Positions 17,987 to 29,172 of a stretch of DNA of 40,749 bases are shown here, piece after piece (position 1 is the stretch's first letter; each line of letters opens with the position of its first letter). Origin of the DNA: Paludisphaera rhizosphaerae (GTDB lineage: Bacteria; Planctomycetota; Planctomycetia; Isosphaerales; Isosphaeraceae); contig NZ_JAALCR010000042.1 in assembly GCF_011065895.1 (NCBI RefSeq), positions 1 through 40,749 on the forward strand. The letters run 5' to 3'. A program made the translations under genes and the position numbers. The notes below the pieces were generated by a model. That model saw nothing but the letters and a program-made list of their open reading frames with translations. It was not told the origin of the DNA and made no database searches.

Positions 17987-18059
17987 GGCCATAACGGCCT
18001 TCCCCCCTCGCGGGGGAAGGTGGCCCGAAGGGCCGGATGAGGGGGACGCTACCAAAAGC
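17987..18059. repeat. Single two-hairpin repeat module, left arm of an inverted pair
   Basis: AACGG, the CCTTCCCCCCTCGCGGGGG stem, GGCCCGAAGGGCC and GGATGAGGGGG, followed by ACCAAAAGC. A 53-bp core is identical, in inverted orientation, to the module at 18511-18586, and ACCAAAAGC is shared beyond the module. The two arms bracket the small gene at 18119-18427. Confidence 0.88.
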
Positions 18060-18118
18060 TTCGGGACCATTTCATGAACGGCTTATGAGAGTCTTGATCC
18101 GTAGCTGCCTGGACGGAA

Positions 18119-18427
18119 TCATGCCGATGATCGTCGTCGAATTTGCCTGGCCAACCTACAGCGAACCCAATACAGCGTGAAGACTCGAACAAGCCTTTGT
18201 CGGACAGGCACACGGCTTGATTGGCGTCGATACCGATCCATGACCTCCCTCTGCCGCTCCGTCCCGAAATCCCAATCGAAAGCCTGACGTTCTGGGTAGA
18301 TGACGAAGTAAAGGCTGATCCAAACGCCGTACAGGAAGAGGCCGAGCATGACCACCGGCGTGAAAAGCCATTCCCACCAGGCGATCGGTGTTTCGTCACC
18401 CCAAGCACGGTGGAGAGGTAGACGCAT
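18119..18427 (-). CDS. Small membrane protein (102 aa), function unknown
   Basis: The protein starts with about 18 polar residues, then a hydrophobic segment WLFTPVVMLGLFLYGVWISL (about 20-39, possibly extended to YFVIY) that should span the membrane once. A basic, Arg-rich C-terminal tail follows with several RQR and RRR clusters and probably faces the cytoplasm. The start is supported by a strong GGAGGG ribosome site 4-9 bases upstream of the ATG. It lies between inverted copies of the intergenic repeat and has lower GC than the core genes. I do not recognise a family. A longer antisense or overlapping frame (18049-18708) runs through both repeat modules and is rejected. Confidence 0.55.
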   Translation of the reverse strand: MRLPLHRAWGDETPIAWWEWLFTPVVMLGLFLYGVWISLYFVIYPERQAFDWDFGTERQREVMDRYRRQSSRVPVRQRLVRVFTLYWVRCRLARQIRRRSSA

Positions 18428-18510
18428 AATCCCTCCTCTGGCAGCTGCCCCAATTGTAGCCGCCCCTCGCCTGCACGACCTTCAAGGTGGCTCATTCGGG
18501 TTCGTCGCAG

Positions 18511-18586
18511 GCTTTTGGTCGCGCCCCCCTCATCCGGCCCTTCGGGCCACCTTCCCCCGCGAGGGGGGAAGGCCGTTGTGGTCTCG
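18511..18586. repeat. Single two-hairpin repeat module, inverted orientation
   Basis: GCTTTTGGT, then CCCCCCTCATCCGG, GGCCCTTCGGGCC and the CCTTCCCCCGCGAGGGGGG stem with AAGGCCGTTGTGG. A 60-bp stretch (18522-18581) reads as identical to 18997-19056 in the same orientation. It therefore forms an inverted pair with 17987 and a direct pair with 18997. Confidence 0.88.
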
Positions 18587-18596
18587 GATTTGGGAT

Positions 18597-18959
18597 TCAT
18601 ACCATTCGCTCTCGATACGCGAGGATCGCCTCGACGACCGCACCGACGTCCTTCACGACGTCGTCGTTCGCGAGCCGTAGGACGTGGAGGCCCTGGGATT
18701 CCAGCCATTTTTGCCGAGCGTCATCGTATTCAAATCGGCCGACGTGGCTCTCGCCGTCGAGTTCGATCGCGAGGCGACGGGCCGGCTCGTAGAAGTCGAC
18801 GACGTACGGGTCGAACGGCACCTGACGGCGGAACTTCAGGCCGAGTCGGCGGAGGTCTCGAAGCTCGCGCCAGAGGGCTCGCTCGGGCTGGGTCATGTCG
18901 CGGCGCAATCGCCGGGCGCGGGTGAGGGGATCGTTGGAAGGATCGGGGCTGAGCGGCAT
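18597..18959 (-). CDS. DUF559 domain protein, restriction-endonuclease-like fold
   Basis: This 120-residue protein matches the DUF559 pattern, a PD-(D/E)XK-like fold related to very-short-patch-repair endonucleases. Visible are TQPERALWRELR (Glu27), FRRQVPFDPYVVDFY (Asp55), AIELDGESH (Glu67, Asp68, His72) and the C-terminal GLHVLRLANDDVVKDV. The spacing of Asp55 to Glu67 fits the nuclease core. Its role is not established for the family; DNA repair or a domesticated mobile-element nuclease are the usual suggestions. The ATG has GAGGA at good spacing. The gene is bracketed by identical direct 60-bp repeat modules, so recombination between them would delete it. Confidence 0.88.
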   Translation of the reverse strand: MPLSPDPSNDPLTRARRLRRDMTQPERALWRELRDLRRLGLKFRRQVPFDPYVVDFYEPARRLAIELDGESHVGRFEYDDARQKWLESQGLHVLRLANDDVVKDVGAVVEAILAYRERMV

Positions 18960-18996
18960 CGGTCAGTCCTCGAGATAAGCCATAAGCTCCTGGTGT

Positions 18997-19056
18997 CGCC
19001 CCCCTCATCCGGCCCTTCGGGCCACCTTCCCCCGCGAGGGGGGAAGGCCGTTGTGG
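18997..19056. repeat. Single two-hairpin repeat module
   Basis: CGCCCCCCTCATCCGG, GGCCCTTCGGGCC and the CCTTCCCCCGCGAGGGGGG stem. It appears identical over 60 bp to 18522-18581. It fills the gap just 3' of carB. Confidence 0.88.
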
Positions 19057-19063
19057 GCCCGAA

Positions 19064-22303
<3,240 letters not shown>

Positions 22304-22740
22304 GGCTGGTCGCTCGCTCTCGCGTCGTTCGGGTCGGGGGGAATCAGATCGGGCCGGGCGGTCGGTCGAACCGTCCGGCGGCTTCGCGTCGCGTGGATCT
22401 TGTCGGAGGCTTGCTCGCTCGCTTCCACCGGAGGTTCGCTCGGGGTGCCATGGCCACGCTTGCGTGACCATGAACCGGCGTGGGTTGGCCTGGATCCGTC
22501 GCCGATCGCATGGCCACGCAAGCGTGGCCATGGCACCCGATCAGGATCGACCTTCCAGCCAGAGGGTGGGAAACGGGCGAGGATACTCCTTCGAGGCACG
22601 CACGAGACGCGCATCGGGCCGCGCTCGGCCTCGGACGTTCTCGCGAGGCGGCGCGGCCCGGAAAATTTCCCGATCTTAGCAATTTTCGAAGGCCCCCGGC
22701 AAGGGCGAGGGCTCTGCGAAACGGGTCGACGGGTCGGTCC
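22304..22740. other. Intergenic region upstream of carB
   Basis: This 437-bp gap carries the carB leader on the minus strand. It contains the inverted palindrome pair at 22443-22538 and no gene with the local codon bias. No pyrimidine-type attenuator hairpin with a following T-run is visible. Confidence 0.5.
22443..22538. repeat. Inverted pair of CATGGCCACGC palindromes (second repeat family)
   Basis: Two 30-bp arms (22443-22472 and 22509-22538) match in inverted orientation with one mismatch. Each contains the palindrome CATGGCCACGC-TT-GCGTGGCCATG (one base changed in the left arm). The spacer is 36 bp. The arms share no sequence with the GATGAGGG modules but have the same REPIN-like layout. 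Confidence 0.8.
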
Positions 22741-23217
22741 TCACAACTCCAGGGAATGGGAGAGGAGCCATTCGGCCTCTCGCCGAGCGAGAGCGACCTC
22801 GTGGGGATAGGCCACGTTCTTGTGGTAGCGGATCCATTCCCTCCAGATGTTGTAGAGGGAATAGGCCTTGGCGGTCACGATGCTGCCGAAGGCGGGGTCA
22901 GGGTAGGCGAGTTGCGGCGAACTGAACCGAAGATCGACCAGGGCCTGAGCCCAATTGCCCAGGTGGTGAAAAGACCCCTTGCCCTTCAGAGCCGCCCTCA
23001 AGTCGCTTTTCGTAATGGGCTGGTTTTTATCAAAACCGGATACATCGAAGAAGGCGGCCTTGAGCGTCATCTCGGCGACGTACCCCCAGAGATAGATGGC
23101 GGCTGTCCGACGGTTCGACGCCTGGAGTACGATCGCATCCGCCGCTCGCTGACGGGCGGCCAACCGGAATTCATTGATACTGTCGTCTTGAAATCGATCG
23201 GGGAGTGGCTTGGGCAT
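22741..23217 (-). CDS. HEPN-like domain protein
   Basis: This 158-residue, mostly helical protein has the core helix pattern RRTAAIYLWGYVAEMTLKAAF (36-56 approx.), which resembles the A-Y-L-x-G-Y-x-x-E-x-x-L-K-A signature of HEPN-domain proteins. A C-terminal helix with REWIRYHKNVAYPHEVA follows; Arg130 and His132/His139 could be nucleolytic residues, but a clear R-x4-6-H motif is not certain. HEPN proteins are often RNases in toxin-antitoxin or defence modules, though many are non-catalytic partners. It is the second gene of a pair, 45 bp after the 181-residue protein. No strong ribosome site precedes the ATG, so translational coupling is possible. No MNT nucleotidyltransferase partner is visible. 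Confidence 0.6.
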   Translation of the reverse strand: MPKPLPDRFQDDSINEFRLAARQRAADAIVLQASNRRTAAIYLWGYVAEMTLKAAFFDVSGFDKNQPITKSDLRAALKGKGSFHHLGNWAQALVDLRFSSPQLAYPDPAFGSIVTAKAYSLYNIWREWIRYHKNVAYPHEVALARREAEWLLSHSLEL

Positions 23218-23262
23218 GAGTCGACGACCATGTCTCGCGGCCGGAGAATTCAGGCGACGCGA

Positions 23263-23808
23263 TCACATCGCCGACTCAAGGAGTGTCGCTGGGATCATGA
23301 TCGTCCACACAGCCTTGCTCCTGGGCAGTTGCTCGACGAGACGTCCTAAAGCAGCGTCGGCCTCCTGCCTCGAGGCGAACAGGAGTCGCGGCTTACCGCC
23401 GGGGAAGAGAAGCGAAGCCCCCTCGGCCCTCATCGCCGCCAAGCATTCCTCCTCGGTGACGGGGTCTCCCTTCCGGAGGAGCGGCACGACTTCGCAGGGG
23501 AGCATCTCGGCTTCGTAGGCCTCGGGATAGGTCAGGCCCAGGATCAACGCCAGTTTGTCCGCGATTTCTTGCCCTTCAACCTCCTGATAAGCCCGTCTGA
23601 CGACGTCGACTCGCTCTTCGTGGGGAACATCCTTCCATTCGTCCCATACGACGGTAACCCGCCGCATCCCCGTTCTTGGGTAATGATCCTCACGGATGAC
23701 GGGCTGGCCGGACTCGTGGTTTTCTCTCAGCTCTCGTGACAATTCGGAGACGAGCCTCTGCACTCTCGCCGGAGGCGTGCTCGTCCCATTGGCGATAATC
23801 CTGGGCAT
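23263..23808 (-). CDS. Hypothetical protein (181 aa), first gene of the HEPN-like operon
   Basis: I do not recognise a named family. The start is fixed by AAGGAGGCAACC nine bases or so before an ATG at 23808; the frame is open for 28 more codons upstream without support. The centre reads RRVTVVWDEWKDVPHEERVD followed by an RRAYQEVEG helix, a pattern of short acidic alpha/beta domain. The C-terminal third has PRLLFASRQEADAALGRL. The protein is soluble, acidic, with no signal or membrane segment. Being short, acidic and directly upstream of a HEPN-like gene, it could be a regulatory or antitoxin partner; this is inference from arrangement only. GC content is lower than in adjacent carB. Confidence 0.7.
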   Translation of the reverse strand: MPRIIANGTSTPPARVQRLVSELSRELRENHESGQPVIREDHYPRTGMRRVTVVWDEWKDVPHEERVDVVRRAYQEVEGQEIADKLALILGLTYPEAYEAEMLPCEVVPLLRKGDPVTEEECLAAMRAEGASLLFPGGKPRLLFASRQEADAALGRLVEQLPRSKAVWTIMIPATLLESAM

Positions 23809-23888
23809 GATGGTTGCCTCCTTGGTCGGAATCGCCGTCGAGTCGAACGGCCCCGTGGACGTCAACACCTCTCGATGATCGTAACATT

Positions 23889-23933
23889 CCATGGCCGCCG
23901 AAGTCGCCTGCCATCCATGGCGGCCGAAGTCGC
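23889..23933. repeat. Short direct repeat, two copies
   Basis: CCATGGCCGCCGAAGTCGC (23889-23907) and CCATGGCGGCCGAAGTCGC (23915-23933) are 26 bp apart and differ at one base. They lie in the 284-bp gap between divergent genes. This could be an operator or a chance local duplication. Confidence 0.5.
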
Positions 23934-24092
23934 TCGGGGCGAGAGGAGGTGATTCTCGGCTCGACGAGGCCGCTTCGGATCAGGAAATGGGGTTGAGGCA
24001 TCTTGAGGATTCCTCCATAACCCGAGGAGTCGGCCCACGTCCCCGCCTCGAAGGCCTGACGGAATCCCGTCCTATGATCCGGGAGATCGGCT

Positions 24093-26294
24093 TTGAATTT
24101 GAAATTGATCTTTAATTGGAAGACGAAAGCCATTTGGTCGTCGTTGATCGCCTGTCTCGTCCTGGTCTCGCCTACACCTACGTGGGGCGTGGGTCGTTCC
24201 CAGCCCGCCGCTCCGAAATCGGGCGGCGCCGCGGCTCCGATCCCGCCGCCGACGCCCTTGGGGTCTGAATCTCAGCCTCAACCTCAACCTCAGCCGTCCC
24301 CGCCGGCCGAGGCTAATCCGCAGGTCCCCGGCGAATCCGTCGCCGAGCGCATCACCCTCCTCCAGAAGTCGATCGAGAAGGACGAGAAGCGTCTCGCCGA
24401 GCTGAAGGCCGAGCGCGACGACCCCAAAGGGGAGTACGCCGAGGCCGAGGCCACGTTCACCGGGGTCGACGCTTCCCTGAAGGAAGCCCAGGAAGAACTC
24501 GGCAAGCTGGGCGACGGCGATCAGGCGAAGCGTACGGAACTCGAGGCCAAAATCGAGCGTCTGCGCAAGGCCCGCGAGCTGACCAAGAACCGCTTCGACC
24601 TGGCCATCGAGGACCGCCGGACGGCCATCGAGCAGATCGCCAACCTCACCCAGAAGCTCGAACGCGACCGCCAGGCGCTGGCGAAGCTTGAAGGGACGAC
24701 CGCCGAAGGGGCGGCCCCCGCCGCTGCCGCTCAGCCGGCGCCCGCACCGGCTCTTGGGGGATCGCCGCCGGCCGCGGCGCCCGCCTCGTCCCCGGCGGCC
24801 GCTCCCGCCGCCCAACCGGCGCCCGCGCCGGAGGCCGCCGCGACGCCCGCCCTGCCGGGCATCCTGGGGACGACGCCCGCCCCCGCGACGACCGAGTCCC
24901 CCGCTCCGGCGGCGGCCGGCGACCCGAAGAAGCCCGTCGACAAGGAGCTTGTGGAGGCCCGGGAAGACGTCCAGGTGAAGGCCAAGGCCTCCCAGGAGGC
25001 CGAGGCCGAGGCTCGCTCGATCACCGACCGGCTGGCGAGCCTTGAGAAAGACCTTGCCTTCGAACAGAAGATGCTGGAGACGGCCCGCAAACGCCGCGAG
25101 AACGCCACCGAGAGCCGCGCCGCGCTGACCGCCGCCTTCCGCGAGCGCTCGCTGGCCGGCGCTCCTCGTGAGGAGCTGGACTCACTCCTCTCCAAGGTCC
25201 ATGAGGTCGAGGAGCGGCTCAAGGCGGCCGTCAAGGACGTCGGCGACCACACCGATCGGGTCAACGAGATCCATTCGATGCGCGCCGAGCTTCAGGCTGA
25301 ACGCATCGCCACACTGAAGAAGGCCGAGACCGCCCGCGAGCAGGTGGTGAAGGCGGAGGACGCCATCCGTCGCCTGGAGAATCCGTTCAGCCTGCACAAC
25401 ATCATGCTCTGGCTGGTCGACCACGGCCCCAGGATGCTCGTGGTGCTGGCCGTGATGGCTCTCGCTCAGGTGCTCTCGCGGTTCTTCGCCGAGCGGGTGA
25501 TCCGGCTGCTGGCTCACAGCGGCGTCCGGGGCTCCAGCGTCGAGCACGAGGCCCGCGCCCGGACGCTGGTGGGCGTCTTTCACAATGCGGTCTCCGTGGC
25601 CGTCATCGTCGGCGGCGGGATGATGCTTTTGCAGGAGGCGGGCATCCCCATCGCCCCCTTGCTCGGCGGAGCCGCCGTCTTCGGTTTGGCCGTCGCCTTC
25701 GGCGCCCAGAACCTCATCCGAGACTACTTCTACGGCTTCGTGATCCTGCTGGAGAACCAGTACAAGCTCAACGACGTCGTCCAGATCGGCGACCTTTCCG
25801 GCCAGGTTGAGAAGATCACCCTGCGGATGACGGTCCTCCGCGACCTGGAGGGGCGGGTCCACTTCCTCCCCAACGGCCAGGTGACGGCCGTCACCAACTT
25901 CACCCACGGCTGGTCCCGCGCTCTTTTCGAGCTAGGCGTCGACTACCGGGAGAACGTCGACCACGTCATCGCGGTCGTCACGGCGCTCGCCCAGCAGATG
26001 CGGAACGATCCGCTGTACGGGCCCATGATCCTGGAGGACGTGACGATGCTCGGCGTCGACGCCCTCGCCGAATGGTCGGTCGTCATCAAGTTCTACATCA
26101 AGACCCGGCCGCTCCAGCAGTGGAGCGTCAAGCGCGAGATGCTCCGCCGGATCAAGAACCGGTTCGACGAGCTGGGCATCCAGATCCCCCTCCCCCAGCG
26201 AACCGTCTTCTACCACAGCGACCAGGCCGGCCAGGGGCCTCTGTCCGACCAGGTCCAGGGCCAACCTCGGATTCTCCAGGCCGTCCGCTCCTGA
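24093..26294 (+). CDS. Mechanosensitive ion channel (MscS family) with coiled-coil periplasmic domain
   Basis: The 733-residue protein is a predicted tension-gated channel. A signal peptide (about 1-32) precedes a periplasmic region: coiled coil (about 82-200), a Pro/Ala-rich linker (about 203-285) and a second coiled coil (about 284-430). Membrane helices follow at about 436-462 and 494-515. The pore-lining helix has APLLGGAAVFGLAVAFGAQNLIRDYFYG (517-548), the MscS signature, and continues into the cytoplasmic beta domain with GDLSGQVEKITLRMTVLRD and FLPNG. It ends in the alpha/beta vestibule. The start is TTG with GGGAGA 7 bases upstream. The periplasmic extension recalls MscK/MscM-type channels. 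It protects against osmotic downshift by family role. Confidence 0.93.
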   Translation: MNLKLIFNWKTKAIWSSLIACLVLVSPTPTWGVGRSQPAAPKSGGAAAPIPPPTPLGSESQPQPQPQPSPPAEANPQVPGESVAERITLLQKSIEKDEKRLAELKAERDDPKGEYAEAEATFTGVDASLKEAQEELGKLGDGDQAKRTELEAKIERLRKARELTKNRFDLAIEDRRTAIEQIANLTQKLERDRQALAKLEGTTAEGAAPAAAAQPAPAPALGGSPPAAAPASSPAAAPAAQPAPAPEAAATPALPGILGTTPAPATTESPAPAAAGDPKKPVDKELVEAREDVQVKAKASQEAEAEARSITDRLASLEKDLAFEQKMLETARKRRENATESRAALTAAFRERSLAGAPREELDSLLSKVHEVEERLKAAVKDVGDHTDRVNEIHSMRAELQAERIATLKKAETAREQVVKAEDAIRRLENPFSLHNIMLWLVDHGPRMLVVLAVMALAQVLSRFFAERVIRLLAHSGVRGSSVEHEARARTLVGVFHNAVSVAVIVGGGMMLLQEAGIPIAPLLGGAAVFGLAVAFGAQNLIRDYFYGFVILLENQYKLNDVVQIGDLSGQVEKITLRMTVLRDLEGRVHFLPNGQVTAVTNFTHGWSRALFELGVDYRENVDHVIAVVTALAQQMRNDPLYGPMILEDVTMLGVDALAEWSVVIKFYIKTRPLQQWSVKREMLRRIKNRFDELGIQIPLPQRTVFYHSDQAGQGPLSDQVQGQPRILQAVRS

Positions 26295-26508
26295 ATTCCC
26301 GCCGTGGGGGGCGTCGGGCGACCGCGCCCCCCTCCGGCTTCCTGGCGAGGCTGGGCTCGCCAACCGTTGAGAACTTTTGCAGGCGTCATCAAGCAATCTT
26401 CATTGGATTCGTCGAGGCCGGCCTGCTATCTTTCGAGGACTTCCCGCGAACGGGGACGGACCGTTCGCGACGAATCGACGTCCTTGAAGTACTCAATGGA
26501 GGAGCGAA

Positions 26509-27225
26509 GTGTCTCGAACGAGACGAATTTGGACGGCCGCCGTCGTCTGCCTCGCGGCGGCGTTCGCGCCGGGGCGGGCGTGGGCGGACCCGATCGTGGC
26601 CTATGAACTACTCGGGCAGCCCGGGAACCAGGCGACGTTTTCGCCGACGACGACCGCCACGGGCGTTGCCGGCCTGGACATGACCCGGGGCTCCGGGCTG
26701 ACCACGACCACCGCGGCCAACACGTTCACCTCGACGGGTTGGAACAGCCTCGACCCCAGCATCGACTACGTCCAGTTCGGGTTCAACGTGGACTCGGGCT
26801 ACGTGGCGAGCGTGGACCAGTTCTACATCGCGACGCGAACCTCGGCCACGGGGCCGGGCTCGGTGAACGTCAACATCTCGGTGGACGGCGGCGCCTTCAC
26901 GACGTTTGCAACCCTGACTCAGACGACCAATGATTACGTCAACACCCTGCTGAACCTGAACCTGACGGTCTACTCCAGCCTGGTGATCCGGTTCGTCGTC
27001 AATCTTTCCAACCCGGTGGCGGCGAACGGCGGCGCCATCGGTAGCGGCGGCACGTTCCGGATCAGCGACTACTACGACTCCTCCACCCAGGTTTACACCG
27101 CCACGAGCTTCACAGGCAGCGTTACGGCGACCGCCGTCCCCGAACCTTCCTCGATCGTCCTGCTGGGCCTCGCCCCGCTGGGCGTCCTCGCCCTCCGCGC
27201 CCGCCTCGCTCGCTCCCGCCGTTGA
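26509..27225 (+). CDS. PEP-CTERM sorting-domain protein
   Basis: This 238-residue secreted protein has an N-terminal signal peptide ending near AWADP. A Thr/Ser-rich beta-sheet body with repeated aromatic and Asn residues follows. The C-terminus carries VPEPSSIVLLGLAPLGVLALRARLARSRR: a PEP motif, a hydrophobic helix and a basic end. That tail is recognised by exosortase, which moves such proteins to the surface or extracellular matrix in planctomycetes and other EPS makers. No exosortase gene is in the window. The GTG start has GGAGG 6-7 bases upstream. The biochemical function of the body is unknown. Confidence 0.9.
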   Translation: MSRTRRIWTAAVVCLAAAFAPGRAWADPIVAYELLGQPGNQATFSPTTTATGVAGLDMTRGSGLTTTTAANTFTSTGWNSLDPSIDYVQFGFNVDSGYVASVDQFYIATRTSATGPGSVNVNISVDGGAFTTFATLTQTTNDYVNTLLNLNLTVYSSLVIRFVVNLSNPVAANGGAIGSGGTFRISDYYDSSTQVYTATSFTGSVTATAVPEPSSIVLLGLAPLGVLALRARLARSRR

Positions 27226-27333
27226 CTTCCAGCGAGCCCGGGGATCTCCTCTTCCTCCCCGGCGCTTCCTTCGAGTCACTTCCCGAATCCTCACACTCCC
27301 GCGGCCGATGAAGACCTCGCGCCGAGGCGTCGA

Positions 27334-27339
27334 TATAAT
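27334..27339 (+). promoter_or_regulatory. Possible -10 element (TATAAT)
   Basis: A perfect TATAAT lies 55 bp before the next gene in an otherwise GC-rich gap. The matching -35 position (AAGACC) is poor, so this is tentative. Confidence 0.35.
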
Positions 27340-27393
27340 CGACTTCGACACTTGTCGTAGTTTCCGATCGCTCCGTCATCCGGGAGTCGAGGC

Positions 27394-28242
27394 ATGTCCA
27401 CGCGAATCTCCGGCATTTCAGTTCTCGTCGCGGCGGCCGCGATGGTTCTCGCAGGGGATGGAGGCGTCCTCGCGCAGGAACCCCCGGCTCGACCCGGGGG
27501 CCCGGCGCGCGAGCAAGGCCCTTCGCGGACGATCCGTGAGATCCAAGGGCTGGTCGCGGAACTGGAGATCAACGCCGAACAGCAACGCCGCCAGCTCCAA
27601 AGCACCGAGTCCAGCCTGGCGCGGGCCCGGGCGCTGCTGGGCGAACTGGAAGGCGATCCCGAGGCCGGCCGTCCGCGGCAAGCCCTGGGACAACAACAGG
27701 GACACCGGTCCCCGAGGTTCGAATTTACCTCCCGTCTCCGCGACCAGACCGCCGCCGAGGAGATGCCCTGGCGCTGGTCCGACGAACGGGCCCTGGCGAA
27801 GACCAGCGTGCGAGAGTTGGGCGGCGGCTACCAGGCGCGGATCGAGCCGATCCAGGAGAATTCACGGATCCCGACGATCACCCTGACCCGCGAGGGCAAG
27901 GACGTCTATTCCTGGCGAGGGCATGATTACTCGGTCTTCGTCGTCGCCCGCGACGTGCTCTATTATCCCGACTTCAGCGACCACGGCGCTGGATGCACCG
28001 TACTCGCCTACGACCTGACGGAGGGGAAGCTGCTCTGGAGGACGGCCCTCTGGACCACACCCCAAGGGAACCATTCGCAATACAGCAACCGCATCAATCT
28101 GGAAGTCGACGACCACCACCTGATCGTGTACGGCAACGAGTCCTACGGCCGCTACCTCGAACTCCTCGACACGCAGTCGGGCAAGATCGTCGGCTATCGC
28201 CTGATCGACGTCGCCCCCGGCCTCTTGCCCGCAGCCCCGTGA
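27394..28242 (+). CDS. Secreted protein with coiled coil and PQQ-like repeats
   Basis: This 282-residue protein begins with a signal peptide (about 1-27, ending near VLAQE). A short coiled coil (about 45-88, EIQGLVAELEINAEQQRRQL) follows, and then a Gly/Gln-rich linker. The C-terminal part (about 120-280) has beta-strand repeats ending in TVLAYDLTEGKLLWRTAL and LELLDTQSGKIVGYRL, which match the strand pattern of PQQ-like or WD40-type propellers. Only two or three blades are evident, so it is shorter than a full propeller and would need to oligomerise or be only a partial domain. No catalytic motif is visible. It ends 15 bp from the convergent GT2 gene. Confidence 0.65.
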   Translation: MSTRISGISVLVAAAAMVLAGDGGVLAQEPPARPGGPAREQGPSRTIREIQGLVAELEINAEQQRRQLQSTESSLARARALLGELEGDPEAGRPRQALGQQQGHRSPRFEFTSRLRDQTAAEEMPWRWSDERALAKTSVRELGGGYQARIEPIQENSRIPTITLTREGKDVYSWRGHDYSVFVVARDVLYYPDFSDHGAGCTVLAYDLTEGKLLWRTALWTTPQGNHSQYSNRINLEVDDHHLIVYGNESYGRYLELLDTQSGKIVGYRLIDVAPGLLPAAP

Positions 28243-28257
28243 GACGCGGGGCGTCGA

Positions 28258-29172
28258 TCAGCGATCCGAACGTCCCCCCTGCTCCGTCACCTTCCGCTCG
28301 TAGACGTTCGCCCACGACAGGAAGTCGTAGAACGAGAGCAAGGTGCAGAAGACCAGCCCCGGCTTGCCGTCGAGGAAGCCCAGGCGCGCGACGTACGAGT
28401 AGAGGAACCGCACGGCCGGACGCATCGGCAGGCGGAGATACACTTTCTTGAGCATTCGCTTGAAGCGCTTGCCTCGGCCGATGGTCGTGGGGATCGGCTC
28501 CGAGAGGAACCGCTCGTACTGGGCGGCCTCCCAGACGGCGTAGCGGTTGTGCTTCTCGACCCAGGCGGCGATGGTCGGGTACGCGTGGTGGTCCAGCTCG
28601 TGCGTGAGCCGGCCGACGCGGCCCTGCAGCTCGACGTGCTCGTGGGCCTCGTTGTCGCCGGAGCGCCCGCCGGAGTGGTCGGGCATGCGCTCGTAGCGGC
28701 CGAGCTTGTGCTTGAACAGGCGGAGGTTCCAGCACTCGGAATAGCCGCAGTGCTTGATCCGCCGGCCGAGGAAGAAGTACTTGCTGTTGAGGTAGTATCC
28801 CTCGGCCTCGTCGGCCTCGATCCTGGCGGCGATCTCGCGGGCCAGATCGGGGACGACGATCTCGTCGGCGTCGACGATCAGGACCCACTCGTTGCGGAAC
28901 GGCAGATTGTCGAGCGCCCAGTTCTTCTTCTTGGGATAGACCCCGTTGAACGCGAACTGGACGACCTGCGCCCCGTGCTCGGCGGCGACGGCGGCCGTCT
29001 CGTCGGTGCTCCGGCTGTCGACGACGTAGACCTCGTCCGCCCACGCCAGCGCCGGCAGGCAGCGGCGGAGGTTCTCCGCCTCGTTCTTCACGGGGACGAT
29101 GACGCTGACGGGCGCCCTGGCGGTCGTCGGGGCGTCGCGTCTTGTGGTCCGGGTCTGGTCGAGGACGGTCAT
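28258..29172 (-). CDS. Glycosyltransferase family 2 (WaaE/KdtX-like)
   Basis: The 304-residue enzyme transfers a sugar from a nucleotide donor. A GT-A fold is indicated by VSVIVPVKNEAENLRRCL (about 22-39), VDSRSTDET and the metal-binding VDADEI (about 99-104). The KKKNWALDN and SYFFLG-type segments and the C-terminal hydrophobic region (LYSYVARLGFLDGKPGLVF) resemble WaaE/KdtX-type enzymes, which add glucose to lipopolysaccharide core. It lies at the edge of the polysaccharide cluster. The exact acceptor is not readable. The ribosome site is weak. Confidence 0.85.
   Translation of the reverse strand: MTVLDQTRTTRRDAPTTARAPVSVIVPVKNEAENLRRCLPALAWADEVYVVDSRSTDETAAVAAEHGAQVVQFAFNGVYPKKKNWALDNLPFRNEWVLIVDADEIVVPDLAREIAARIEADEAEGYYLNSKYFFLGRRIKHCGYSECWNLRLFKHKLGRYERMPDHSGGRSGDNEAHEHVELQGRVGRLTHELDHHAYPTIAAWVEKHNRYAVWEAAQYERFLSEPIPTTIGRGKRFKRMLKKVYLRLPMRPAVRFLYSYVARLGFLDGKPGLVFCTLLSFYDFLSWANVYERKVTEQGGRSDR

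Follow-up and report, generated by a model that had tools for sequence, protein, structure and literature searches.

Two-gene modules built around a HEPN-fold protein are already known. According to excerpts of PMC7641770 and PMC11586414, the known HEPN/MNT pairs need nucleotide transfer to the Tyr of an RX4HXY motif, and PMC11586414 also reports, in its excerpted part, a HEPN toxin whose active site is non-classical. In the excerpted sections of PMC3710099, the antitoxin gene comes first in several type II pairs and MNT comes first almost always in MNT-HEPN pairs; HEPN-T proteins in which the His is replaced keep a conserved His elsewhere; in AbiV, a conserved His lies at the alternative, HEPN-T position (Table 1); and MtlR is a probable non-catalytic RNA-binding HEPN. 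Here we describe a planctomycete gene pair in which a basic protein with a HEPN fold, predicted with confidence (H), adjoins a partner (P) whose N-terminal part is predicted to be BolA-like.

The locus and its distribution

The window is the whole stretch of DNA analysed, 40,749 nucleotides of a Paludisphaera rhizosphaerae contig (NZ_JAALCR010000042.1). Its features at the pair are as follows (window coordinates).

23817..23823, minus strand: Shine-Dalgarno-like AAGGAGG 5' of P (sequence)
23263..23808, minus strand: P, 181-aa acidic partner gene, first of the pair here (ORF; adjoining H in relatives)
23512..23769, minus strand: predicted BolA-like N-terminal domain of P, residues 14-99 (AF2 model, Foldseek, VIA-align, hhalign)
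23284..23499, minus strand: predicted ferredoxin-like C-terminal domain of P, residues 104-175 (AF2 model, VIA-align)
23218..23262, minus strand: gap between P and H, 45 bp (sequence)
22741..23217, minus strand: H, 158-aa basic protein of predicted HEPN fold (ORF; AF2 model; HEPN structures rank top)
23041..23109, minus strand: predicted HEPN core helix of H, residues 37-59 (AF2 model; Y42 and G45 invariant)
22966..22968, minus strand: His84 codon of H (invariant in 15/15 pairs)
22828..22830, minus strand: Arg130 codon of H, in an RY motif (invariant in 15/15 pairs)

The original prediction had described a two-gene arrangement led by an acidic protein with a strong ribosome site, less GC-rich than carB next door, and had proposed conserved adjacency as a check. 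All of this was borne out. Both open reading frames are present on the minus strand, with a P of 181 aa and a gap of 45 bp. AAGGAGG lies 8 nt before the ATG of P, and no comparable ribosome site was seen by eye 5' of H within the 45-bp gap. The pI calculated from sequence is 5.24 for P and 9.39 for H. The GC content of P and H (0.615 and 0.591) is below that of carB (0.683), as is their GC3 (0.731 and 0.736 vs 0.939). By Pfam, carB is the downstream neighbour of the pair and an MscS-like channel gene on the opposite strand the upstream one; Rfam and tRNA scans of the window gave no matches. The two congeners inspected (of five) did not reveal an empty site, carB not being near the MscS-like gene in either.

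Between H and carB there is a REP-like element, with nested palindromes CATGGCCACGC NN GCGTGGCCATG at window positions 22443-22472 and 22509-22538, forming an inverted pair about 60 nt apart. The palindrome core occurs in 79 copies in the genome, and a control pattern in none. Elsewhere in the window, positions 18597-18959 hold a 120-aa ORF that we take to resemble a DUF559-type endonuclease-like protein.

H and P are one co-inherited module. Among 99 related genomes (own included; G- and L-numbers below denote genomes and loci of our samples), H was matched in 11 genomes at 12 places and P in 10 genomes at 11 places, and at all 11 P places H adjoins P on the same contig and strand, so that the predicted adjacency is kept in relatives. 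H lacks P at one place only, in G026, where the match to H is weak and partial (E 6.3e-4). With the P profile, 10 of the 45 genomes of the family, the own one among them, were found to carry P, as against none of the five congeners. Across 392 genomes of the phylum, a first P profile found P in at least the own genome and G256, and a wider profile, run around G256, found at least G256 and G232; both searches scored up to nine candidates per genome, which makes these counts lower bounds. A further match of the wider profile, in G379, was rejected as false because no HEPN gene adjoins it. P is shorter (94-129 aa) in the diverged pairs from G256, G232 and a Phycisphaerae contig (L030), where it lacks the ferredoxin-like domain and has the predicted BolA-like one only. 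A contig search with one narrow pattern returned seven loci, all titled planctomycetes of some kind. Duplicated pairs are present in G034 and G256. G021 (L074, 9800-10400) holds a decayed pair, with H in fragments, P frame-shifted and, as judged by eye, a PIN-like gene nearby.

Pair statistics were computed over 15 pairs, leaving out the decayed G021 pair, the middle G256 copy (stop in H) and G026, which has no P. All 15 H proteins are basic (pI 9.4-10.9), while the pI of P is below 6 in 13 and P is basic in 2. In 14 pairs H precedes P, at spacings of -19 to +11 nt; the window is swapped to P then H. The distance matrices of H and P correlate at 0.938, a value reached by 0 of 5000 permutations and to which shared species history contributes. 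Between the near-identical pairs G034b and G044, the codon changes number 9 silent and 3 replacement in H, and 2 silent and 5 replacement in P, so those in P do not demonstrate constraint on it.

In G034, G043 and G009, which span two genera, trpB and trpA flank the pair (Pfam-checked in G034 and G009); in G044 the contig starts shortly 5' of H, and trpA comes after P. At these sites the pair may be expressed with tryptophan synthase. Among the neighbourhoods listed, the neighbours differ elsewhere. Loci of the pair at trpB-trpA are L067 (5635-6713), L072 and L069.

Searches of mobile elements gave no match to P and its relatives in plasmids, none to P in phages (one G256 P as query) and none to P relatives in viral contigs, where the search relied on short peptide patterns. 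Window H had no match in plasmids, and the H profile none in viral contigs.

Predicted folds of the two proteins and their relatives

The AF2 model of H, built from 8 sequences, reached pLDDT 88.6 and pTM 0.85. Six of the best 10 Foldseek chains are titled HEPN; the others are two chains of 2q00, TT1696 (1ufb) and one Csm6, and 2q00 is a HEPN in Table 1 of PMC3710099, in the excerpted part. Foldseek E-values are weak (best 0.10, at probability 1.00; none at or below 0.001). VIA-align gave Z 14.7 for 1ufb, 14.1 for the sacsin HEPN, 13.8 for 1wol and 13.3 for 2hsb, compared with Z up to 8.3 for unrelated helical bundles; the program warns that Z below about 13 may reflect a common arrangement among such bundles. 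The HEPN fold of H is thus predicted with confidence. Window H has no Pfam or NCBIfam match, PF05168 included, although 4 of the 10 members of the H alignment match PF05168 at E up to 1 (best 2.5e-4). It does match the PADLOC model PDC-M28A (E 5.7e-7), as do 9 of the 10 alignment members, window included.

The original prediction of a HEPN-like core helix and a HEPN fold therefore fared well: the helix it named falls in the predicted helix 37-59, which contains the invariant Y42 and G45, and HEPN structures rank first, with Z 13.3-14.7 in four rows. The R-x4-6-H site that it proposed to look for did not hold up as a feature of the family. Window H carries R126-x5-H132, found at the same place in 3 of 15 pairs, and an R-x4-6-H anywhere in H occurs in 8 and is absent in 7. 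The classical motif is thus not conserved, and H may consequently be non-catalytic. RX4HXY was found in 0 of 15. Invariant in all 15 pairs are H84, R130, R24 and W125. Of these, Arg130 and His84 agree with the alternative pattern of the HEPN-T group, with His84 as the putative equivalent His.

The AF2 model of P, built from 9 sequences, is moderate (pLDDT 81.9, pTM 0.67). It shows helix-strand-strand-helix-helix-strand at residues 14-99 and a second alpha/beta domain at residues 104-175. From this model and the comparisons below, residues ~1-100 are predicted to form a BolA-like (KH type II) fold and the C-terminal rest a ferredoxin-like fold. Among the best 50 Foldseek rows, none reached E 0.001; human BOLA3 led the list (E 4.1e-3), with E. 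coli BolA in third place, and six rows are BolA-type, the remainder being ribosomal chains, MamM domains and others. Of the best 50 VIA-align rows, 12 start at P residue 21, comprising 11 BolA-type rows (Z 5.0-6.4; YrbA, which we take to be BolA-type, is counted) and one mitoribosomal chain. Matches to the C-terminal half include a spliceosome chain (Z 6.9) and an eEF2 chain (Z 6.7).

Since these structural Z-values are moderate, the sequence was tested as well. In hhalign, the P core against nine BolA proteins scored 29.5 (P-value 1.4e-4), at a probability of only 53%. Column shuffling (150 runs, maximum 17.9) and block shuffling (100 runs, maximum 23.7) never reached this score; reversed alignments scored 10.6 and 11.1, and H against BolA 14.1. 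R66, an invariant residue of P, lines up with an Arg that 7 of the 9 BolA proteins share. The BolA idea for P came from a search of its profile against PDB sequences, which gave six matches up to E 1, among them BolA (0.43-0.75) and a designed repeat protein (0.0017), whose matching stretches are not significant individually. A phmmer search of the G232 P against the PDB gave nothing convincing, with BolA at 0.79 among seven matches.

Window P did not match the Pfam BolA family PF01722; its Pfam scan returned RsmI_C alone, under the cut-off (E 0.07). No PF01722 protein was found in 59 genomes of relatives (own included). In the BolA family, conserved His or Cys residues are cluster ligands; in 16 P sequences, no invariant or nearly invariant column is His or Cys. 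No nucleotidyltransferase family matched window P, and GSX10DXD occurs in 0 of 15 P sequences (a relaxed pattern fits 2). The original description of the partner as different from MNT is consistent with this, and its label of an unrecognised type gives way to the predicted BolA-like plus ferredoxin-like architecture. Two further ideas were set aside. An internal duplication in P was rejected (half-against-half hhalign probability 0.6%; one high score came from overlapping pieces), and a missing GxxG was dropped as an argument against RNA binding, since 8 of the 15 P sequences have a GxxG within their first 105 residues.

More distant relatives were sought among 16 other HEPN-like genes of the phylum sample, a number that excludes the window and two rows of G256. 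Immediately downstream of eight of them, in the same orientation, lies a BolA-like gene; seven of these partners were assigned with the P profile (E 4e-7 to 2e-3, among a small number of ORFs) and L056 by eye. Six of the HEPN-like genes have a different-looking downstream gene matched by neither profile, and two, in short open frames, have no downstream partner, both assessed by eye. The eight partners match P at an hhalign probability of 96.8%, a value that is partly circular because seven of them were chosen by the P profile. Pfam BolA, which is not circular, matches five of the eight and ranks first for four, at E 0.0037 to 0.25, all below the cut-off. Against the BolA proteins, the eight gave an hhalign probability of 80% (P-value 1.4e-5; 0 of 80 shuffles). 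The own genome holds a second HEPN/BolA-like pair (L060, G000:C17), and in it a further HEPN gene is joined by the other type of partner (L063, G000:C4). We tentatively propose, at somewhat below even probability, that HEPN plus BolA-like is a widespread undescribed toxin-antitoxin or defence module of Planctomycetota, with a BolA/KH-II antitoxin, and that other HEPN genes of the same group have exchanged the BolA-like protein for a second, different partner family.

The second kind of partner was seen by eye 3' of HEPN at L053, L062, L048, L052, L054 and L063, and on an Acinetobacter plasmid (L096, 3423-3827). The short G256 HEPN matched one plasmid HEPN, which in turn matched four more records. 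This plasmid relative has BrnT/BrnA nearby and a different partner. In the copies from Acinetobacter, Rhizobium and Lichenicola, the gene downstream encodes a small partner of a different type, and the Deinococcus copy is partnered by a DUF3800 gene. The Acinetobacter, Rhizobium and Lichenicola partners were rejected as P or BolA (hhalign probability 0.7% and 0.3%, respectively).

Function of the pair and alternative explanations

A patchy distribution, the close coupling of H and P, their opposite charges, the duplicated and decayed copies and the residues of the HEPN-T kind fit a toxin-antitoxin-like pair. In this reading, to which we give about an even chance, H would be the effector, an RNase-type toxin, and P its restraint. 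H would be a toxin of the HEPN-T kind, with Arg130 and His84 acting across the HEPN dimer cleft in place of the classical R-x4-6-H. P would bind H directly and so keep it inactive, as a type II-like antitoxin working without nucleotidyl transfer; their charges, basic for H and in most pairs acidic for P, suit such a complex. In this clade, the additional predicted ferredoxin-like domain of P may provide a larger contact or sense a signal. If P were lost or inactivated, for example under stress or phage infection, H would be freed to cut RNA, and growth would stop.

Several observations count against a toxin-antitoxin pair. H comes first in relatives, against the antitoxin-first habit described in the excerpted sections of PMC3710099. 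P relatives are absent from the plasmids, phages and viral contigs searched; the P model is moderate (pTM 0.67), with no Foldseek match at E 0.001; P is basic in 2 of 15 pairs; and the codon changes between the two near-identical copies do not demonstrate constraint on P. The lack of a conserved R-x4-6-H and the three pairs between trpB and trpA, an odd site for a selfish toxin, weigh in the same direction.

The last two points also favour a non-toxic RNA-binding or RNA-processing complex, composed of H as a non-catalytic HEPN and P as a KH-like RNA-binding subunit, that would regulate neighbouring or distant transcripts. HEPN and BolA-like/KH folds both occur in RNA-binding proteins, and P precedes trpA in G044 as well as in G034, G043 and G009. 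Such a complex is hard to reconcile with the patchy distribution, the differing neighbours and the retention of H84 and R130 in 15/15 pairs, and we consider it unlikely, though deserving of real weight.

Less probable still is anti-phage abortive infection, in which P would hold H inactive until a phage signal frees it. The match of H to PDC-M28A (E 5.7e-7; 9/10 alignment members) points this way, as does the presence among its structural matches of AbiV, by its PDB title the RNase of a two-component antiphage system; yet the AbiV Z of 7.2 is below the level that VIA-align calls meaningful for helical bundles. Window P has no PADLOC match, and those of its relatives are weak and unlike one another (PifA 0.037, DRT 0.042, PglZ 0.0075; none for five P). 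No defence gene was recognised by eye among the ORFs at 18000-28500, where carB, the MscS-like gene and the pair were profile-scanned.

A genuine BolA/IbaG protein with an iron-sulfur or regulatory role that merely happens to lie next to a HEPN gene would agree with the fold and weak profile match of P, but is very improbable given the invariant columns free of His and Cys, the absence of PF01722 from the 59 genomes and the strict linkage to H. Chance neighbours or mis-called ORFs are contradicted by the conserved linkage and the predicted folds, and can practically be dismissed.

Comparison with known systems

No description of a HEPN-BolA pair was found in the literature searched, which lay outside bioRxiv and was mostly short of full text. 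The main text of PMC3710099 contains neither 'bola' nor 'KH domain', and in two HEPN papers the 'bola' text match proved to be a surname. For the PADLOC candidate PDC-M28, no literature was found; H and its HEPN relatives match PDC-M28A, a comparison that concerns component A alone, whereas window P matches no PADLOC model.

With AbiV of Lactococcus, H shares the predicted HEPN fold, at the level of a weak structural match (Z 7.2). With the HEPN-T group (PF05168; sacsin HEPN, 1ufb, 1wol), it shares the fold and an Arg with a conserved His off the classical place, but window H has no Pfam match and no MNT partner. The BolA fold is associated with iron-sulfur traffic and regulation. P shares the predicted core topology of BolA/IbaG (PF01722), and its R66 aligns with the BolA Arg (7/9); in contrast to that family, it falls below the Pfam cut-off, has no invariant His or Cys and is tied to a HEPN gene.

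HepT-MntA (HEPN/MNT, type VII) resembles the pair in having two small adjoining genes, one of HEPN fold. It differs in its motifs (RX4HXY in 0/15 H, GSX10DXD in 0/15 P), in its partner, here BolA-like, and in gene order, the HEPN gene coming first in relatives of the window pair. A HEPN group paired with a BolA-like protein would suggest control of a HEPN toxin without nucleotide transfer and, if the pairing is true, the BolA fold would gain a role beside an RNase-type protein.
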